From NCBI GenBank assembly GCA_945862505.1, contig CAMAYJ010000009.1, positions 1 through 44,642 of the forward strand: a stretch of 44,642 bases of DNA. Direction: 5' to 3'. The DNA is from Bifidobacterium breve (GTDB lineage Bacteria; Actinomycetota; Acidimicrobiia; Acidimicrobiales; Acidimicrobilacustridaceae). The notes beneath the pieces are model-generated. The model saw only the letters and a list, made by a program, of their open reading frames with translations. It was not told the origin of the DNA and did not search any database. Positions within the stretch are counted from its first letter, which is position 1; each line of letters starts with the position of its first letter. The translations under genes and the position numbers were made by a program. Below, piece by piece: positions 10,506 through 38,344 of this stretch.

Positions 10506-11921
10506 GTGAACACCCCAGTCGCCCGAGTCCGCTTTGCTCCCTCGCCTACGGGTTACCTCCACATAGGTGGGGCCAGGACCGCTCTTTTCAACTGGCTCTT
10601 CGCCCGCCAGCAAGGTGGCGAGTTTGTGCTTCGCATCGAAGACACCGATGCTGAACGCTCGAGGCCAGAACTCATTGACGTTATTTTCCGGTCTTTGGAA
10701 TGGTTGGGCCTTGATTGGGATGGCACGCCCGTCCATCAGTCCGAGCGCGGGGCCATGCATCTCGCTGCAGTCGAGACGCTTCTTGCGAATGGCTCGGCCT
10801 ACTGGTGTTCGTGTTCCTCCGATGAGGTCAAAGCTCGAGCGGAAGCTCGTGGCGGCACTCCTGGCTACGACGGATTTTGTCGCGAGCGGGGATTGGGCCC
10901 AGGCGAAGGTCATGTCGTTCGATTTCGGGTTCCCGACGAAGGCGTTACTTCCTTCGACGATCTCATTCGCGGCACGGTCAGTTTTGAAAATGCCGTTCTT
11001 GAAGATTTTGTGATTCTTCGTTCGAACGGAACGCCGATGTTTCACCTCGCAAACGCAGTCGACGATGCCGATCAAGGGATTACTCATGTCATCCGCGGCG
11101 AAGACCTCATCAACGTCACACCAAAGGTCCTGCTTCTTCGCCAAGCACTTTCGACGTCGGGCGAATTGATTTTCGCTCACCTTCCGCTCATCGTGAATGA
11201 AAAACGTCAGAAGCTTTCGAAGCGACGCGACGATGTTTCTGTCGGCGATTACATCGATCGCGGCTATTTGTCTGAGGCGATGGTGAATTACCTCGCCACC
11301 CTGGGGTGGGGTCCACCTGATGACATCGAGATTCGACCGCTTGCCGAGATCGTTGACTTGTTCCGTATTGCCGATGTGAATAATTCCGGCGCATTTTTTG
11401 ATGTCAAGAAGTTGCAGCACTTCAATGGTGAATACATTCGTAATCTGTCGGTCCCGCAATTCGTCAGTCGTTCAACTCGATGGTTATACGAAGACACTCC
11501 TTGGGAACCAGATCGATTTGATATCTCCACCTTCGAAGTTCTTGCTCCGCTCGTACAAGAACGCGTGAAATTGCTTTCAGAAGTGCCCGGTTATGTCGAT
11601 TTCATTTTCACTCCCGACCCCGTAATCGATGAAGACTCTTGGCAAAAGGTGATGGTCAAAGGCGCCGATCTGGCGGCGGCTGTGCTCGAACATGCCACGG
11701 CTCAATTTGCCGATTGTGACTGGACCGCAGCGTCACTTGAAGCGGCCCTGTTTTCGTATGCCGAAAAGCACGAAATTTCAAAGGGCAAGGTGCAGGCCCC
11801 TGTACGAGTTTCGGTGACTGGTCGCAGCATTGGGCCACCGCTTTTTGAATCGCTTGAAGTTCTCGGTCGGGACGAAACGCTTCGCCGGCTCACATCAGCG
11901 AAGGTTCTTCTGCAGGGCTGA
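10506..11921 (+). CDS. gltX: glutamyl-tRNA synthetase
   Basis: Class I synthetase charging tRNA-Glu, and tRNA-Gln too if non-discriminating. The 471-residue protein starts MNTPVARVRFAPSPTGYLHIGG, with the HIGH-type motif at residues 19-22 and KLSKR at 236-240, then the C-terminal anticodon-binding region. GTG at 10506 gives the family's N-terminus; a GGAGG run is about 25 nt upstream, so there is no good Shine-Dalgarno sequence. It is followed 1 nt later by the YdcF-like gene, and a tRNA-Gln gene is 670 bp downstream. Confidence 0.96.
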   Translation: MNTPVARVRFAPSPTGYLHIGGARTALFNWLFARQQGGEFVLRIEDTDAERSRPELIDVIFRSLEWLGLDWDGTPVHQSERGAMHLAAVETLLANGSAYWCSCSSDEVKARAEARGGTPGYDGFCRERGLGPGEGHVVRFRVPDEGVTSFDDLIRGTVSFENAVLEDFVILRSNGTPMFHLANAVDDADQGITHVIRGEDLINVTPKVLLLRQALSTSGELIFAHLPLIVNEKRQKLSKRRDDVSVGDYIDRGYLSEAMVNYLATLGWGPPDDIEIRPLAEIVDLFRIADVNNSGAFFDVKKLQHFNGEYIRNLSVPQFVSRSTRWLYEDTPWEPDRFDISTFEVLAPLVQERVKLLSEVPGYVDFIFTPDPVIDEDSWQKVMVKGADLAAAVLEHATAQFADCDWTAASLEAALFSYAEKHEISKGKVQAPVRVSVTGRSIGPPLFESLEVLGRDETLRRLTSAKVLLQG

Positions 11922-19702: not shown

Positions 19703-20650
19703 ATGCATCCCGAAGACGAATTTCATACGCCCACAACTGACGATCCGGAGTGGACTGAAACATGTTGGTTCACGTTTGCTGTTCCCGAACGCAATTTGTC
19801 GGGCCAGCTCTACCCGTATTTCAAGACAAATCAGGGCGTGGCTGCGGGCGGCGCGTTCTTTTGGGATGGCCGTAACGAGCGACCAGAAACCTGTGTGTAT
19901 GCCAAGCAGTTCTGGCACCTCCCGTTAGCGGATCAGAAACTGACCGATCTCACGCTCGCCAATAGCATTCGTTACGAATGCCTCAAGCCGCAGAAGAAGT
20001 GGCGCGTTCGCTACGACGATCCCGACGGTGGCGATGAGATTCATGTCGACCTCACGGTCACCGGCGTCGTTGCCCCCAACATGCTGGGTGAATCTCACGT
20101 CGATCAGCCCTGCCGTTACCAGGGAACGATTGTCTTGCACGGCGAAACCATTGAAGTTGATGACTACGGTTTTCGCGATCGTTCTTGGGGCCCTCGTCCG
20201 CAGTTTGGGCAAGGCATTCATGGTGGATCGATGATGCGCGGTGGCTATAGCTACGCCACTGCTTCAGACACGCACGCGTTTCATGCCATCACCATGGACT
20301 TTGGCACCGGCGCAATCGTGATTCACGGTTCGTACATGGTCGATGGCCACTGGGCGAAGCTGAAAAGTGGCGAACGCCGAGTGATCGAACGTGATCGTGA
20401 GGGTTTCCCGCTTGTCGTGGAACTCGATGGCGTCGATGAACTCGGTCGATCATTCAATGCTCGTGGGGAAACTACGAACTCACTCGGTTTCCTGATTAAT
20501 CCGAATCTGTACACCATCAATTGCCTGACTCGTTGGTCATTCGACGGCATCACAACTTGGGGCGAAGACCACGACAACCATTCATTCCCCGACGCACGTC
20601 GATTGTTCCGTGAAGCTCGCGGTCAGTCGCTCTGGACGGTCCCATCGTGA
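19703..20650 (+). CDS. DUF7064/DUF7065-type (AttH/CrtC-like) protein
   Basis: A 315-residue protein rich in beta structure. The segment YGFRDRSWGPRP is the hallmark I associate with the DUF7064/7065 lipocalin-like family often found in terpenoid and steroid catabolic clusters. It has no signal peptide and no catalytic set that I can assign. ATG at 19703 is preferred over an in-frame TTG at 19694 that overlaps the preceding stop. The next gene's GTG overlaps its stop as GTGA. The role is unknown. Confidence 0.82.
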   Translation: MHPEDEFHTPTTDDPEWTETCWFTFAVPERNLSGQLYPYFKTNQGVAAGGAFFWDGRNERPETCVYAKQFWHLPLADQKLTDLTLANSIRYECLKPQKKWRVRYDDPDGGDEIHVDLTVTGVVAPNMLGESHVDQPCRYQGTIVLHGETIEVDDYGFRDRSWGPRPQFGQGIHGGSMMRGGYSYATASDTHAFHAITMDFGTGAIVIHGSYMVDGHWAKLKSGERRVIERDREGFPLVVELDGVDELGRSFNARGETTNSLGFLINPNLYTINCLTRWSFDGITTWGEDHDNHSFPDARRLFREARGQSLWTVPS

Positions 20651-31846: not shown

Positions 31847-32323
31847 ATGGGCATCCTGATTCTTCCCCTCATGGTCGTGCTGGCTTGGGTTTTTGCTGCA
31901 TTCGGACTCACGCCGTATGGGAGTTCAGCAGGCGATGATTTTGCGGTAGAGGCGATGCGGTGGATGCTGTTTCTTCCCGCAGGCATTCAGTTCATCGTGA
32001 GTGGCTTCATGCACACGGTCTTCGCGAAGTCGACAGCGGAAGGCATCGGTTGGAAAACCAATGGCTTCCAGTACGAGTTGGGTTTTGCCTCATGGGGGCT
32101 CGGCATCGGTGGGATCTTGGCAGCATCGCGTGACTGGGACAGTTGGCTGATCATGACGGCGGTGGCCTCGATTTTTCTCGTGCTTGCTGGCGTACAGCAC
32201 GTCGTGCTCATGGTGCGCGAGAAGAACTTCAAGCCGGGTAATTCTCTCGTTTTGATCTATGACTTTGGACTTCCGGCGTCGTTGATTGGGTTGTTACTCG
32301 CAACGCATTCCTCGATGGCGTAA
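31847..32323 (+). CDS. small integral membrane protein (DUF6790-like)
   Basis: A 158-residue protein with four likely helices: LPLMVVLAWVFAAFGL, WMLFLPAGIQFIVSGFMH, ASWGLGIGGILAA and IYDFGLPASLIGLLLA. It resembles small proteins annotated DUF6790; the function is unknown. It is the last chromosomal gene before the left attachment repeat at 32453. Confidence 0.8.
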   Translation: MGILILPLMVVLAWVFAAFGLTPYGSSAGDDFAVEAMRWMLFLPAGIQFIVSGFMHTVFAKSTAEGIGWKTNGFQYELGFASWGLGIGGILAASRDWDSWLIMTAVASIFLVLAGVQHVVLMVREKNFKPGNSLVLIYDFGLPASLIGLLLATHSSMA

Positions 32324-32452: not shown

Positions 32453-32466
32453 GTGGCACCCCCAAC
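32453..32466. repeat. left attachment repeat (attL core)
   Basis: GTGGCACCCCCAAC, identical to 38268-38281. It is flanked by chromosome on the left (GTCGATCGC) and the element on the right (CGCAGAAG). No tRNA can be drawn here, so this is the displaced copy of the tRNA-Glu 3' end. Confidence 0.85.
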
Positions 32467-32578
32467 CGCAGAAGATTGGAACCGACTGGGCGAGTGGCTA
32501 GCAGGCGTTGAGGACCTAAGGCTTGCCTTGGCCAGTAGCGGCCTAATCCCGATTCTGACGGGATGGAATCGGCCATGA
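32453..32578 (+). other. stranded 3' part of the recombinase gene (joined only in the circle)
   Basis: Reading from GTG 32453 in the phase that the right repeat has inside the recombinase gives 41 sense codons, starting VAPPTAEDWNRLGEWLAGVE and ending at TGA 32576-32578. When the repeats are recombined, codon 500 of the recombinase runs straight into this frame, making a 541-residue protein. The TGA overlaps ATG 32575 of the HTH gene as ATGA. The frame, the lack of stops and the overlap are seen; expression in the circular form is inferred. Confidence 0.8.
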
Positions 32579-33108
32579 GTAGGTCCCAAGGGAGAGTGAA
32601 CCAAGGGGAGGATGTCATTCTCTGGGACTACACAGCGCTACATCGGCTCACATCCGCACAGTCCTTGGCGGCATCGGCAATCGGAACGGGGACGTCGCAC
32701 CAAAAAGCCGCCGAGGTCGCAGGAGTTCATCGAGTGACCGTGACGAACTGGAGCAATCATCATCCAGAGTTCATCGCTGAAGTGAATCGGATCCGCTCGG
32801 ATATCGCTGACGAAGTTCGAGCGGATTGTGATCGCCTGACGCGTTCCGCCGTCGATCTTGTGGCTAAGAGGATCGCAGATGGGGATGTTCAGAGTGCTTT
32901 TAAGTGGCTGAAGATAAGTCCGCCTGAGACATTGTTGGCTAGGGGCGGCGGACCATTGCATTCTGTGGAGGTCGTCGATCGGATCAGGCGGCAACTCCCG
33001 GGACCTGTTGAATCCATCCTCGTTGCCAATGATGAGGTCGGACCGGGAGAGGCGGAGGCGCACTTGGTGCAACGCCTCGCGAAGTACGCGTGCTATCCCG
33101 ACTCTTAG
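32575..33108 (+). CDS. small helix-turn-helix protein, terminase-small-subunit-like
   Basis: A 177-residue protein. The segment RLTSAQSLAASAIGTGTSHQKAAEVAGVHRVTVTNWS, then HPEFIAEVNRIR, is the HTH plus 'DPEF..ELNRLR' pattern seen in phage terminase small subunits and in stand-alone DNA-binding proteins of mobile elements. There is no terminase large subunit nearby, so a packaging role is unlikely. ATG 32575 is chosen because it overlaps the end of the circular-form recombinase frame (ATGA). An upstream ATG at 32563 would add four residues. Confidence 0.75.
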   Translation: MSRSQGRVNQGEDVILWDYTALHRLTSAQSLAASAIGTGTSHQKAAEVAGVHRVTVTNWSNHHPEFIAEVNRIRSDIADEVRADCDRLTRSAVDLVAKRIADGDVQSAFKWLKISPPETLLARGGGPLHSVEVVDRIRRQLPGPVESILVANDEVGPGEAEAHLVQRLAKYACYPDS

Positions 33109-33123
33109 TGCCGGTTTGCCCAT

Positions 33124-34404
33124 GTGGTGTCTCAGTCCGTCTGTAACGTACTGAGCGTGAGTCCTACGAGTATTGACCTCTTTGCTGGCTGCGGCGGACT
33201 CTCGCTTGGTCTCGAGCAAGCAGGCTTTGAGACCGTATTTGTGAATGAACTCCATCCGAATGCGATGGACACCTTCTTGATGAACCGATTTGGTTCGCTA
33301 GTCGATGACTCCAAAAATCGGTGCTTTGACATCCATGATTTGACCCAAAACCCGGACGAGTTGGATGCACTGGCTCGCCGTATGCGTCAAGAACACGGGG
33401 ACATCACGCTGGTGTCAGGTGGTCCTCCTTGTCAGGGATACAGCGGAATCGGTCACAGGCGTTCATTCGATATCACTAAGGATGAGATTCCGAGCAACCA
33501 CCTTTATGGGGAGATGGCCAAGTTCGTGTCGGCTATCGGACCTAAGGCTTTCGTATTCGAAAACGTGAGGGGCCTGCTGACGTCTCGATGGACTCCGGCA
33601 GGGGATAAGGGTGAGATTTGGCGCGATGTCGTGCAGACATTTGAGCGCATCCGCGTTAAGCGGGGTCGCAAGGTTCTCGAATACCGCATTGGGAGCAAGT
33701 TGGTGTTCGCGAAGGAATACGGGGTCCCACAAAACCGACCTCGGGTCATCATGGTGGGTATCCGATCCGATATTGACCTGAACTTGGATCCCAACGGTGT
33801 CGCAGGTGGATTTCTCCCCATTCCTACGGGTGGAGCGCCAAATCTGATTGATCTATTGGGTGACCTTGTAGATCCAAAATGGATGCCCGGAGGTGCCACA
33901 ACGACATATCGCACCAATCCGAAGAACGCTGTTCAAGAGGCATTGCGGCAGACGAGAGAGGGCGAAGTTCTCGTGAAGGGTGATCTCCTTACAGAGCAGG
34001 AGTACTCGAATCATCGCCCTGAGGTCATCGAGAAGTTTCAGTACATGATCGATAACGGAGGCGAGATTCCGTTGCGTATGCAAACGAAGAAGTTCGCTCA
34101 AAGGGTCCTACCTGCGCGGTGGGCTGCTAACGGTCCATCAATCACCGCAACCTCCCTTCCTGACGATTTCGTCCATTTCTCCCAGCCTCGAACTCCTACG
34201 GTCCGCGAATGGGCGCGATTGCAGACGTTTCCTGACTGGTACGAGTTCGCAGGACGCAGAACTACGGGAGGCCGCCGTCGGGCGGGTGATCCGGGTACAG
34301 GCGACTGGTCGCGCGACGTGCCGAAATACACCCAGATTGGAAATGCTGTCCCTGTGGCCTTAGGCGAGGCGATTGGTACGCACCTTCTGGGCCTTCTTGA
34401 TTGA
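33124..34404 (+). CDS. DNA (cytosine-5-)-methyltransferase of a type II R-M system
   Basis: Transfers methyl from AdoMet to C5 of cytosine. The 426-residue protein has motif I DLFAGCGGLSLGLEQAGF (about 18-35), motif IV GGPPCQGYSG with catalytic Cys103, motif VI FVFENVRGL (about 143-151), motif VIII QNRPRVIMVGIR, and motifs IX/X RTPTVREWARLQTFP and QIGNAVPVALGEAIG. GTG 33124 is taken as start, but a GTG at 33157 also fits; no clear ribosome-binding site is visible. It converges on the endonuclease with 6 bp between stops and protects the host from it. Recognition is perhaps CCNGG-like, judged only from the partner's family. Confidence 0.95.
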   Translation: MVSQSVCNVLSVSPTSIDLFAGCGGLSLGLEQAGFETVFVNELHPNAMDTFLMNRFGSLVDDSKNRCFDIHDLTQNPDELDALARRMRQEHGDITLVSGGPPCQGYSGIGHRRSFDITKDEIPSNHLYGEMAKFVSAIGPKAFVFENVRGLLTSRWTPAGDKGEIWRDVVQTFERIRVKRGRKVLEYRIGSKLVFAKEYGVPQNRPRVIMVGIRSDIDLNLDPNGVAGGFLPIPTGGAPNLIDLLGDLVDPKWMPGGATTTYRTNPKNAVQEALRQTREGEVLVKGDLLTEQEYSNHRPEVIEKFQYMIDNGGEIPLRMQTKKFAQRVLPARWAANGPSITATSLPDDFVHFSQPRTPTVREWARLQTFPDWYEFAGRRTTGGRRRAGDPGTGDWSRDVPKYTQIGNAVPVALGEAIGTHLLGLLD

Positions 34405-34410
34405 TGGTTC

Positions 34411-35622
34411 CTATGCCGCCAGAAGGTCGTATTCGACAGGGTCGGGAAAGAGAAGTCTGTGGTGCGCACTTCCGATCTTCCAGAGGTAACCATGATCTCG
34501 GGTACGACCGGACTCTTCGAGGCTGAGTGTGTAATCCATCGAGATTCGGGCAGCGTCGACTAACGGTCCGAAGTTCGATATCAGGGGGGTTCGAGTGTGA
34601 ATCACCTTGACATAGTGGAACTGCTCAACGCCGTTTGGCGACGTCTGGACGCGAGCAGAGACCCAGAAAGTCTCGGGGTGTTTGGCGGCGAGCGATGCCT
34701 GAAGGACGCTCAAGTTCCATTGAGCGACGAACTGAGGGGGTTGCTCATGCTCGCTGATTGAGTAGTTGGTGACCACGTCATCCTTCTCGTCAGTAGAGAG
34801 GTAGAGGCCACTCGGATTCGGGTTTGCTGTGACGGTTGAGTACAACTGGAGACGACCAGTTGTTGGCTCATTCCAGCCAAAAGCGTCTAGGACTGCTCGA
34901 GCGCTCCCGAGTCCCTTTAGGTCCCAATCGGGCTTCTTGGAGAATAAGTTGCTGCGGTTTCGCCTTCCATCGGCTCGCAGTCTTGATGCCTTCAACTCGA
35001 TGCCCATGTAGTCAGGCGTCGGACGACTGTTCGCTTCGATGCCGAGGAGTGTCTCGAGTGTGTAGCCGACCCCTGTGTCGCCTGAGCGGAGGGAGTCCAA
35101 ATACCCGCGTCCAGCAATCTCTCGAAGGAGTTCGAGGAGTTCGACGGCGGAAGATGCAACTTGCTTATCCGTGAGCAGGGTTCGAAGGGGACTCCCATCA
35201 ATGTGGCGGGACTCTAGGAGCGCCGTGTCACTGCAGTTGACTGCATACAACTCCTTCTTCCCATCGGCGATGAGGGCGATCAGGTTCTCGCTCTTCGCGT
35301 AGTTGCCAAGAACACTTATCCAAAGGCGTGGGTCGCCATCCTTTGTTTGGGGGCGATAGAGCGAGACAGTCCTCGTCTCGAATCGATCCGGGTGGATGAC
35401 ATGGATCGGGATTGTCCGCTTGCCTTCAGGACCCTGATCTTGTTTGCCGTAATCGTGGATGCCATGAAGCGAGAGGAACTCGCGCACTGTCTGAGTCGCA
35501 TCAAGGATCGATTTGTCGAGACCATTTTGGAGAGGAACGACATATGCAGCCTCAACTCCGAACTCGGCGAACGCCTCAACAGCCGACTCAATGGGTGTAT
35601 CCGCCCGATTCAGCACGACCAA
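34411..35622 (-). CDS. type II restriction endonuclease, MvaI/BcnI-like, with extra N-terminal domain
   Basis: A 403-residue protein. GVGYTLETLLGIEANSRPTPDYMGIELKASR (residues 184-214; key Glu190, Asp204, Glu209, Lys211) matches the PD-(D/E)xK core of the MvaI/BcnI family, whose known members cut CCWGG and CCSGG. Those enzymes are about 240 residues; here about 170 residues precede the core, with no family I recognise. The start is TTG 35622, or GTG 35616 in frame. It lies tail to tail with the methyltransferase and head to head with the MerR-like gene, whose operator is 57 bp away. Confidence 0.85.
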   Translation of the reverse strand: MVVLNRADTPIESAVEAFAEFGVEAAYVVPLQNGLDKSILDATQTVREFLSLHGIHDYGKQDQGPEGKRTIPIHVIHPDRFETRTVSLYRPQTKDGDPRLWISVLGNYAKSENLIALIADGKKELYAVNCSDTALLESRHIDGSPLRTLLTDKQVASSAVELLELLREIAGRGYLDSLRSGDTGVGYTLETLLGIEANSRPTPDYMGIELKASRLRADGRRNRSNLFSKKPDWDLKGLGSARAVLDAFGWNEPTTGRLQLYSTVTANPNPSGLYLSTDEKDDVVTNYSISEHEQPPQFVAQWNLSVLQASLAAKHPETFWVSARVQTSPNGVEQFHYVKVIHTRTPLISNFGPLVDAARISMDYTLSLEESGRTRDHGYLWKIGSAHHRLLFPDPVEYDLLAA

Positions 35623-35678
35623 CGTCTATCAGTACGAAGTCCGCCGCCACGGGATCGATGTCAAGAGTTGTCCGAAGT

Positions 35679-35707
35679 TTGAACAGTACGGTTCAATCTG
35701 GTATCGT
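35679..35707 (+). promoter_or_regulatory. merR-like gene promoter overlapped by an 18-bp palindrome
   Basis: TTGAAC (35679-35684) and TATCGT (35702-35707) are spaced by 17 bp, with TGG just before the -10 box. The -35 box is the left arm of the palindrome TTGAACAGTACGGTTCAA (35679-35696; 16 of 18 positions symmetric). A protein bound there would block this promoter, and the divergent endonuclease start is only 57 bp away. The start codon at 35715 falls on the expected transcription start. Confidence 0.75.
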
Positions 35708-35714
35708 CTTTCAG

Positions 35715-36479
35715 GTGGAGAAGACCAACAATCAGGAGACTTCCCGTGCCGGGGACATCCGCGAACTCGTCGGGATGTCCTACCGCCAGATCAATGACTG
35801 GACGCAGCGCGGGGTGATCCCCGACAACCGCGATTCCGAAACCGGATGGCGTCGATTCACGGCCCGCGAAGTCTTCATGATGAAGGTCTGCAAGGAGATC
35901 CGCGACAGGTTTGGGGTTCCCGTTGAGAAGTTGAAGTTCGTGAGCGACTCGATGCTTGAGCCGGGTGTGAATCACTTCGCGTCGGCCATCAAGACGATTG
36001 CGATGCTGGGTTGCGCTTTATGGGTGATCACGGACTTTGAGTCCACGTTCTTCATGGACTCCGAGTTGGACATTATGGAACTCGCTGACATGGGTTACTT
36101 CGGTGGAGACGCAAAGGCCGGTCTGGTGATGGTCAAGGTCAGTCCTCTCGTCAATGAGTTCTTGTCAGCGCGCAAAAGCCCGATCACCCTTCCTCTTCAT
36201 GGTTGGGGACGAGAGGTGGTGCGGACGGCCTACGAGTTCGCTGGGCTGACGCCCGAGGAACAAAAGGTCATGGCCCTTGCTCGCTCGCCCGACGTCAAGT
36301 CAATCGAAGTGATCCTCAAGAACGGGAAGATCCATCGGATCAAGGAAACTAAGGACTTCGACGCTTCCAGTCTCTTTGAGGCGATGCGGGCCGACGACTT
36401 TCAGAAACTCGAAATCGTCATGCGTGACGGGAATGTCGTCAGCGCTCAGCGGGAGGTGTCAAGCAAGCCCAGTAGTTGA
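35715..36479 (+). CDS. MerR-like transcriptional regulator
   Basis: A 254-residue protein. The N-terminal winged helix (about 13-57, DIRELVGMSYRQINDWTQRG followed by GWRRFTAREV) is MerR-type, and a recognition-type arm follows. The rest (about 75-250) is a domain I do not recognise, with GCALWVITDFEST and a repeated strand motif (IEVILKNGKIHRIKE, LEIVMRDGNVVSAQRE). GTG 35715 is chosen because the promoter places the transcript start on it (leaderless). The frame is open upstream to 35412, but that part is antisense to the endonuclease. It may control both itself and the endonuclease. Confidence 0.85.
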   Translation: MEKTNNQETSRAGDIRELVGMSYRQINDWTQRGVIPDNRDSETGWRRFTAREVFMMKVCKEIRDRFGVPVEKLKFVSDSMLEPGVNHFASAIKTIAMLGCALWVITDFESTFFMDSELDIMELADMGYFGGDAKAGLVMVKVSPLVNEFLSARKSPITLPLHGWGREVVRTAYEFAGLTPEEQKVMALARSPDVKSIEVILKNGKIHRIKETKDFDASSLFEAMRADDFQKLEIVMRDGNVVSAQREVSSKPSS

Positions 36480-36628
36480 AGTCAAGTACTTCAGTCGCGA
36501 AGACGGTCGCAACTGTCAGGGGAAGCACCCCAGCAGAGTTGACCTATTTAGTTCACGAAGTTGCTGATGACGGGAGGCACCCGAGTCGGAACGCGTAGGG
36601 CGCACGCAAGGTGCGCGCTGAGGTCAAC

Positions 36629-36793
36629 GTGCTTTCACTCGAACGGTGCCGGGAGATTCTCGGTGATGCAGGCAAGGACGCAACTGATGAGCAAGTCATT
36701 GCTCTGCGAGATCAGATGATGTCGATCGCAAGTTATGCGCTCGACCAACTCTCTAAGGGAGGTCAGGATGGCCACGACAAAGAAGACGAGTAG
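36629..36793 (+). CDS. small protein preceding the serine recombinase
   Basis: A 54-residue protein starting MLSLERCREILG, with TDEQVIALRDQMMSIASYALD. This pattern of a short helical protein ending just inside a large serine recombinase gene is common in mobile elements. GTG 36629 has GAGG 5 nt upstream. Its last 26 bp overlap the recombinase start, so they are translationally coupled. The function is unknown; a recombination accessory role is a guess from position. Confidence 0.78.
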   Translation: MLSLERCREILGDAGKDATDEQVIALRDQMMSIASYALDQLSKGGQDGHDKEDE

Positions 36794-38309
36794 TCCATCT
36801 GCCGTCATTTACACGCGCGTGAGTACGGAGGAGCAAGTCGGGAATCACTCATTGTTCACGCAGCAAAAGTGCTGCGAGGAGTTCTGTGCGCGCGAGGGTT
36901 TTGAAGTCGTGGCGTCTTTTAGCGATGAAGGTGAGTCGGCAAAGACAGCGAATCGGACTCAGTTGCAGGAGATGCTCGCTTACGTCGCCGCCAATGCCAA
37001 GCGTCAGAACATCACTGCAGTCGTCGTGATGCGAGTCGATCGGTTCTCTCGCAATGTCTTAGTCCATGAGCAGGTGCGCCTGTATCTCCGCGCTAGCGGT
37101 GTGAATCTCCGTTCCGCGACTGAATACATTGACGAGACGGCAGTCGGGCAAATGATGGAGGGCGTCCTTGCTGTCATGGCCCAGTTCGATAACGCTGTGA
37201 GATCAGATCGAACTAAGGCCGGTATGACGGCGTCGCTCAACGCTGGAAACTGGGTATGGCGACCACCAATCGGATATGCCAAGGGTCCTGCGGGTGGTAC
37301 GACCATGGTCCACGATCCGGAGAGCGCTCCGCTCATTGTGCGATTGTTTGAGGCTGTCGCTCAAGAAGGAGCGTCACAGTCCTCTGCGCTCCGAGAAGTG
37401 ACGTCCCTAGGTCTGCGCCGAGCCGACGGCTCCACGGTTCCGTTGCAAGCCGTCGGCAGGATTCTTCGCAACCCGCTTTACGCCGGTCGCATCGTGGTGA
37501 CCAAGTTCGGAGTCGATACTCGGGGCAAGTTTGAGCCGATTGTCTCGCCGGAACTCTTCGATGCGGTCCAAATCGCACTCGGTGGGGGGCGTGCTTCCAA
37601 GAAGCGACATCGAGCAGGGGAAGCCTTCCCCCTCAAGCGAGTCGTGAAGTGTGGAATGTGCGGTGAGCGTGTCACGGGGAGTTTCTCCCGCGGTCGTTCA
37701 AAGCACTATGGCTATTACCGGTGCTATCAAGGAGCCTGCAGGGGCCTGAAAGTTGGCAAGGACTCCCTTGAGGAGGCATTCGGGACCTTCCTCAAGGCGC
37801 TTTCGGTTACGTCCGAGGCCTTTGAACTTCTTGATGCAGTCGTTGTCGACCTTCACGCTGATCGAGTTCGTGCGGACGAGTTGGCAGAAAGGCATTTGAG
37901 GGGGCAACTTGACGAAATCGAGCGAAAAGAGGCTCGGCTTTTTGACCTGCACTTCTATGAGCGTCGAATCGATGACGCCACTTTCGAGGTTAAGAGTCGC
38001 GCATTGCGTGAGGAACGTGCCGAGATCGAGACGACAAGCGTCACTCGATTGAGCGTTTCAGGCGATCCAGCATCGACGGTTCGGTTCGCTCGATCAGTTC
38101 TGGGCGATCTGGGAGGGTGTTGGAACCGTCTCACCACCACACAGCGAGCGGACTTTGCGCTCGCATTGTTCCCGTACGGGTTGGTCTATGACGAGGGATT
38201 TGTTGGAACCGCCGAAAGCCCATGGAGTAACTGGCCTGTTGGCACCTTTGAAGCCTTTGATGAGCGTGTGGCACCCCCAACGGGATTTGAACCCGTGCCG
38301 CCACCTTGA
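36768..38309 (+). CDS. large serine recombinase (integrase); C-terminus re-tailed by tRNA DNA
   Basis: A 513-residue site-specific recombinase. The catalytic Ser19 is in IYTRVSTEEQ, with VMRVDRFSRN and FDNAVRSDRTKAGM completing the resolvase domain (about 12-155). A recombinase domain follows (LRNPLYAGRIVV), then a zinc ribbon (VKCGMCGERV, YYRCYQGACRG, about 300-330) and a coiled coil (about 370-420). ATG 36768 has GGGAGG 5 nt upstream. Residues 501-513 are read from the att repeat and the host tRNA-Glu antisense strand. In the circle the frame instead continues for 41 codons from 32453. It probably drives integration and excision. Confidence 0.95.
   Translation: MATTKKTSSPSAVIYTRVSTEEQVGNHSLFTQQKCCEEFCAREGFEVVASFSDEGESAKTANRTQLQEMLAYVAANAKRQNITAVVVMRVDRFSRNVLVHEQVRLYLRASGVNLRSATEYIDETAVGQMMEGVLAVMAQFDNAVRSDRTKAGMTASLNAGNWVWRPPIGYAKGPAGGTTMVHDPESAPLIVRLFEAVAQEGASQSSALREVTSLGLRRADGSTVPLQAVGRILRNPLYAGRIVVTKFGVDTRGKFEPIVSPELFDAVQIALGGGRASKKRHRAGEAFPLKRVVKCGMCGERVTGSFSRGRSKHYGYYRCYQGACRGLKVGKDSLEEAFGTFLKALSVTSEAFELLDAVVVDLHADRVRADELAERHLRGQLDEIERKEARLFDLHFYERRIDDATFEVKSRALREERAEIETTSVTRLSVSGDPASTVRFARSVLGDLGGCWNRLTTTQRADFALALFPYGLVYDEGFVGTAESPWSNWPVGTFEAFDERVAPPTGFEPVPPP
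38268..38281. repeat. right attachment repeat (attR core) inside tRNA-Glu and the recombinase
   Basis: GTGGCACCCCCAAC, identical to 32453-32466. On the minus strand it is the last T-stem base, the 3' acceptor strand, discriminator G, CCA and one further C of tRNA-Glu. On the plus strand it is codons 501-505 of the recombinase. Confidence 0.88.
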
Positions 38310-38344
38310 GAGGGTGGTGTCCTAGGCCGCTAGACGATGGGGGC
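38269..38344 (-). tRNA. tRNA-Glu (anticodon CTC), integration target
   Basis: The minus strand folds as a cloverleaf. Acceptor GCCCCCA (38344-38338) pairs with TGGGGGT (38279-38273), with a G1-U72 wobble. The anticodon stem CCACC/GGTGG closes loop CTCTCAA with anticodon CTC. The T arm is ACGGG TTCAAAT CCCGT. Discriminator G38272 and an encoded CCA (38271-38269) follow. The gene is intact because the element carries the 3' end in its att core. The recombinase runs 42 bp into it from the other strand. Confidence 0.94.

Follow-up and report, generated by a model that had tools for sequence, protein, structure and literature searches.

A large serine recombinase with an attachment site inside its own gene and two predicted C-termini set by integration beside a tRNA gene

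The window analysed here, i.e., the whole stretch of DNA with its 44,642 nucleotides, contains a 5.8-kb restriction-modification element placed between a DUF6790 gene (31847–32323) and tRNA-Glu(CTC). Because the docking site of this element lies inside its own large serine recombinase (LSR) gene, insertion beside the tRNA gene exchanges the conserved end helix of the enzyme for a short nonsense peptide. At the level of sequence, the LSR has two alternative C-termini set by the integration state, and the original prediction of one enzyme form in the circle and another in the chromosome is well supported. According to the reading that we favour (probability of about 0.6), attP is located inside the 3′ end of the LSR gene, the long form encoded by the circle would be the integrase, and integration would cut off the helix, leaving a disabled or weakened short form and a stabilised inserted state. 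How serine integrases choose a direction is a key question, on which their use as genome tools rests; the docking-site-in-LSR arrangement, found in relatives from many bacterial phyla, could act as a built-in one-way switch. If true, the range of self-altering integrases would grow to include bacteria and a second family of enzymes. Besides, since matched long and short forms tied to the integration state occur naturally in many phyla, they allow a direct test of what the terminal helix does.

The features of the element are listed in Table 1. A 14-bp direct repeat (GTGGCACCCCCAAC) was observed at 32453–32466 and 38268–38281, on the + strand in both cases, and its two copies are the only ones in the 2.32-Mb genome. 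As had been predicted from the window, the near copy starts with LSR codon 501, base 38268 being the first base of this codon when counting from the ATG at 36768 (with an in-frame ATG at 36735 as alternative start, the codon numbers would change by 11). After codon 500, the chromosomal frame runs through 13 codons (VAPPTGFEPVPPP) supplied by the core and the antisense strand of tRNA-Glu, and ends at the stop at 38307–38309. At the far repeat (32453), the LSR phase remains open for 41 codons (VAPPTAEDWNRLGEWLAGVEDLRLALASSGLIPILTGWNRP) up to the TGA at 32576–32578, so that joining the repeats computationally gives a 541-aa LSR whose last 41 codons are exchanged for 13 in the chromosome. Both the 13- and the 41-codon ends and the length of the joined protein were reproduced as originally predicted, and so was the ATGA overlap between the tail stop and the next start (ATG at 32575), which also occurs in L067 and L071. 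The circle junction of the element would read GTGGCACCCCCAAC then CGCAGAAGATTGGAACC.

Table 1. Coordinates of the element, its att sites and its genes in the window.
Feature	Position	Strand	Remarks
Integrative element	32453..38267		5815 bp, from far core up to near core; repeat-bounded; missing from empty sites in L004 and L011
Far att core	32453..32466	+	Flank joined to attP P′ side
Rest of 41-codon tail (AEDWNRLGEWLAGVEDLRLALASSGLIPILTGWNRP, stop)	32467..32578	+	Predicted C-terminal LSR helix in circle; about first 25–30 codons conserved in relatives
TTGGAACC, proposed zinc-domain motif of attP P′ arm	32476..32483	+	Carries W-N codons
HTH-type gene	32575..33108	+	Start overlaps tail stop (ATGA); similar gene in L071
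C5 DNA methyltransferase, cargo	33124..34404	+	PF00145, E 3e-52
MvaI/BcnI-family restriction endonuclease, cargo	34411..35622	-	PF15515, E 2e-49
MerR-type regulator	35595..36479	+	PF13411; true start uncertain; similar genes in L125 and L071
Small ORF overlapping LSR start	36611..36793	+	Similar small ORFs 5′ of LSR at 13 other loci
LSR, chromosomal short form, 513 aa	36768..38309	+	PF00239, PF07508, PF13408
Near att core	38268..38281	+	Inside LSR gene, codons 501–505
tRNA-Glu(CTC)	38269..38344	-	Target gene, stays intact; antisense strand gives end of short LSR
TTGAAC, antisense T-loop motif, proposed zinc-domain motif of attB B′ arm	38287..38292	+	

The empty site was found in two same-genus genomes (L004 and L011), in which the flanks are contiguous and share exactly one 14-bp core (...gagtcgatcgcGTGGCACCCCCAACgggatttgaaccc), joining at a single repeat copy as foreseen; the LSR was absent from the other 20 same-genus genomes examined. 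As in known tRNA-targeting elements, the repeat is located at the 3′ end of the tRNA gene, the tRNA remains intact and relatives carry the empty site. Although the genomes of this study are mostly metagenome-assembled, an explanation by a chance repeat, a chance open frame or an assembly artefact is very improbable. Chance is refuted by an expectation of 0.01 for such a repeat (window, one mismatch allowed), by the empty sites and by the HMM counts and held-out test of the tail described below, while an artefact is ruled out by the two empty sites and by the recurrence of the same design in many independent contigs.

The LSR presents, in order, the Resolvase, Recombinase and zinc-ribbon domains of serine integrases. 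A search of genome contigs with its single sequence gave no matches, and relatives were obtained through a search with an alignment of the first homologues, leading to 80 loci from many phyla; their sequences come mostly from metagenomic assemblies, and related elements among them are not independent of each other. Many far ends of the relatives lie outside the 10 kb of flank that was covered. Homologues ending short of the att site were looked for; instead, the LSR frame continues through the core into the antisense 3′ end of a tRNA gene in 57 of the 80 loci (Glu 38, Lys 7, Ala 6, Arg 4, His 1, Asn 1). In a midpoint-rooted tree, a split separates the tRNA-reading LSRs, accompanied by some LSRs that lack a tRNA, from serine recombinases that are more distant; inside the group, several switches of tRNA type occur. 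A tblastn comparison with plasmids and phages returned distant LSRs alone, none of which, among the matches listed, reaches the tail. From these loci, the alternative ends are confirmed, as far as reading frames can tell, as a property of the whole clade beyond the element of the window. In L085, L090, L096 and L097, the LSR 3′ end shows a T-loop-like motif (ATCGAACC) followed by sequence without a recognised tRNA; we propose that these motifs are tRNA fragments or T-loop-like secondary sites.

The tail supplied by the far side was then considered in the relatives. At the far att site upstream of the LSR, an open frame encoding a W-N-x-[ILV]-x3-[LI] helix was present in 29 of the 80 loci, and frames in phase with the core share the consensus xWN[QRH][ILV]xxxLxx(hydrophobic)xxL[R]. 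Searching with a regular expression for the tail behind core matches of 7 bp or more, we obtained 33 in-phase matches in 27 loci, a few of them being due to chance as in the controls, which gave 3 and 2 matches in the two other phases and 3 on the reverse strand. Across all six frames, an HMM of the tail found about 40 matches on the LSR strand vs one on the opposite strand. When loci were held out of the HMM, each locus's own tail was the best match in that locus; this is illustrated by the window, whose tail was the best six-frame match of an HMM built without it, with 16.5 bits vs 3.8 for the next. Past the W-N motif, the information held by codons +3 to +14 is 0.25 bits at the first codon position, 0.78 at the second and 0.07 at the third. 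All 35 tails have L, I, M or V at position +7, encoded by 11 different codons, and an in-frame stop interrupts 1 of the 35 tails, vs 27 and 16 for the two other frames. Such a codon pattern is read as selection on a protein helix. Conservation of the DNA only is ruled out by codon positions and frame openness, on which the argument for protein selection rests since simple synonymous/nonsynonymous ratios were mixed between groups. The idea that the tail is real, conserved protein holds for about the first 25–30 of the 41 codons; the remaining C-terminal ones are not conserved.

Because the helix and the LSR body share a frame only across the joined core, selection on the tail can only take effect in the circular (or tandem) state. 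Naturally joined LSR-tail frames were indeed found in L143, in L184 (a contig of a viral collection, whose LSR has a frameshift further upstream) and in a recombinase remnant of L078. These joined frames, together with the match between tail phase and LSR phase in the core-anchored set, make it scarcely credible that the tail is a separate micro-gene starting inside the core and not a part of the recombinase; the core of the window does open with GTG, a possible start codon, but for some tails (e.g., L094) the matched core does not contain ATG, GTG or TTG in the phase concerned. Long core-like repeats without tail, which count against the favoured reading, were also observed upstream of the LSRs of L083, L104, L115 and L130.

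The motifs proposed to be contacted by the zinc domain were compared between the two sites. In the related loci, the antisense tRNA T-loop motif reads T[TC]GAAC. When the sites were aligned on the core, the attP motif was 5 bp farther out than the attB T-loop motif, on the P′/B′ side, in 27 of 27 elements, the window included; most of these elements come from the phase-dependent search, which favours shifts of 2, 5, 8 or 11 bp and not 5 alone. This shift is in line with the LI/A118 integrase, in which the zinc-domain motif is likewise displaced between attP and attB (PMC3783163). It also alters the reading phase, the motif being read as F-E-P in the tRNA and as W-N in the tail. As the T-loop, which would form half of attB, is nearly universal, these observations suggest how the clade may move between tRNA genes. 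Since the same bases serve as att motif and as W-N codons, part of the tail conservation (the T before TGG, the AAC codon) belongs to the DNA level. This fits a rival explanation, in which attP overlaps the end of a compact gene by chance, the helix adds little and both enzyme forms work alike, and the lack of conservation in the C-terminal 15 or so tail codons fits it as well. However, the strong protein-level pattern continues past the motif with near-random third positions, and a W-x2-I-x3-L helix is also encoded by Bacteroidetes-type LSRs in which the DNA motif is missing; such a by-product is considered quite unlikely. Two more copies of TTGGAACC were noticed in the LSR gene, 83 bp apart, at 38120–38127 (read C-W-N-R) and 38203–38210 (read V-G-T-A), and similar motif pairs with a spacing of 83 bp exist in L065 and L067. 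These copies are possibly added binding sites, or reflect protein conservation.

The structure of a full-length natural relative (L143) was predicted with AlphaFold2 (mean pLDDT 89, pTM 0.49). The model contains the usual LSR parts, with a coiled coil in the zinc domain (helices 336–383 and 389–409), a low-confidence linker (486–492) surrounding the residues that the core encodes, and a terminal helix (494–516, pLDDT about 57–69) without confident docking. Its best solved structural matches are serine integrase complexes, including 9y66, 9dxd, Bxb1 (9iu2), phiC31 (9tep) and LI (4kis). The recombinase thus resembles large serine integrases of the LI/A118, Bxb1, phiC31 and SPbeta type in its domains, coiled coil, structural matches and 5-bp shift. 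Unlike in these enzymes, attP is part of the integrase frame, integration alters the C-terminal helix and a tRNA T-loop provides half of attB.

In the favoured mechanism, the LSR gene of the circle would read through the core into the amphipathic C-terminal helix, yielding the 541-aa enzyme, and integration at the 3′ end of tRNA-Glu would remove this helix and substitute the antisense-tRNA peptide, yielding the 513-aa form. The long form would be the proper integrase, and loss of the helix would disable or weaken the enzyme for further recombination. If these roles are true, the inserted state would be stabilised, because each form is made only with its matching substrates: the long one with attP, the short one with attL and attR. 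Re-mobilisation would need a directionality factor, or long enzyme coming from another element or from a neighbouring unit that donates a tail. In the circle, the LSR, the tail and the HTH and methyltransferase genes (32575–34404) would be co-directional, with the restriction enzyme on the opposite strand; the LSR transcript would read on through these two genes, and this might promote methylation at an early stage.

The main rival is an excision-biased short form, acting on attL x attR, perhaps with the small ORF upstream of the LSR as directionality factor, so that the element stays mobile. In its favour, most of the integrated copies observed have an open LSR body, 13 other loci have a similar small ORF directly upstream of the LSR, and repeated recombination is indicated by L115, L118, L125 and L127, in which more than one core-plus-tail unit is located upstream of a single LSR. 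However, the tRNA-derived end is beyond the reach of selection acting on the element, and the selection detected favours the long form. The excision bias is regarded as unlikely, and stabilised insertion is favoured. The recurrent small ORF follows the pattern LS..CR..L...D.....LRD......A, with copies at L118:9790–9981, L089:9714–9989 and L145:4439–4624 among others, and its copy at 36611–36793 is a candidate directionality factor or regulator.

Among bacterial tyrosine integrases, some have a gene whose 3′ end overlaps attP. In the open-licence literature, no report was found of serine integrases forming a clade in which attP sits within the enzyme's own frame and a conserved helix is swapped. 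One functional parallel is provided by the archaeal suicidal integrases (SSV1, pTN3, pT26-2), in which att lies in the tyrosine integrase gene, which is altered and inactivated by integration into a tRNA gene (PMC8371274); a 2021 review considered self-disrupting recombinases as exclusively archaeal (PMC8371274). The LSR shares with them the att site in the integrase gene and its alteration by tRNA-gene integration, but it is a bacterial serine recombinase that is not split, its end being exchanged while the catalytic parts stay whole. In the integration-dependent immunity of mycobacteriophages, which use a tyrosine integrase, attP is located in the repressor gene and integration strips the degradation tag of the repressor (PMC9635641). 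There as here, integration alters the C-terminus of a protein; in our case, however, att is in the LSR gene and the recombinase itself, rather than a repressor, is altered.

Tail loss on integration is not universal, as the chromosomal LSRs of two Bacteroidetes-type loci keep a full tail. In L139, a second copy of the LSR 3′ end, starting within the gene and including the tail, lies 2.4 kb downstream with about 83% identity (L139:11458–14210); in L148, such a copy lies 1.2 kb downstream with about 95% identity (L148:11481–12961). The chromosomal LSR of both loci apparently takes its full tail from the adjoining unit, and the LSR end would therefore depend on its neighbour, i.e., its own circle, a tRNA or another unit. 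Some relatives (L115, L118, L125, L127, L139 and L148) resemble integrons in being arrays of cassette-like units beside one recombinase, with a single small gene spanned by some of the units, but the enzyme is a serine and not a tyrosine recombinase of the IntI type, the site lies inside the recombinase gene and the units carry its tail. A wider view may be proposed tentatively, at somewhat under even odds: a cassette-capture system, widespread in bacteria and operated by serine recombinases, with att inside the recombinase gene and a copy of the tail in every element or cassette, in which the neighbour of the LSR (own circle, tRNA or cassette) would decide which enzyme is made, so that the C-terminus would read the integration state and set the direction. 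Besides, in L088, the tRNA-Lys-like fragment of the LSR (11469–11515) recurs 8.8 kb downstream (20254–20300, 97.9% identity over 47 bp), which suggests a later insertion of another island into the same tRNA.
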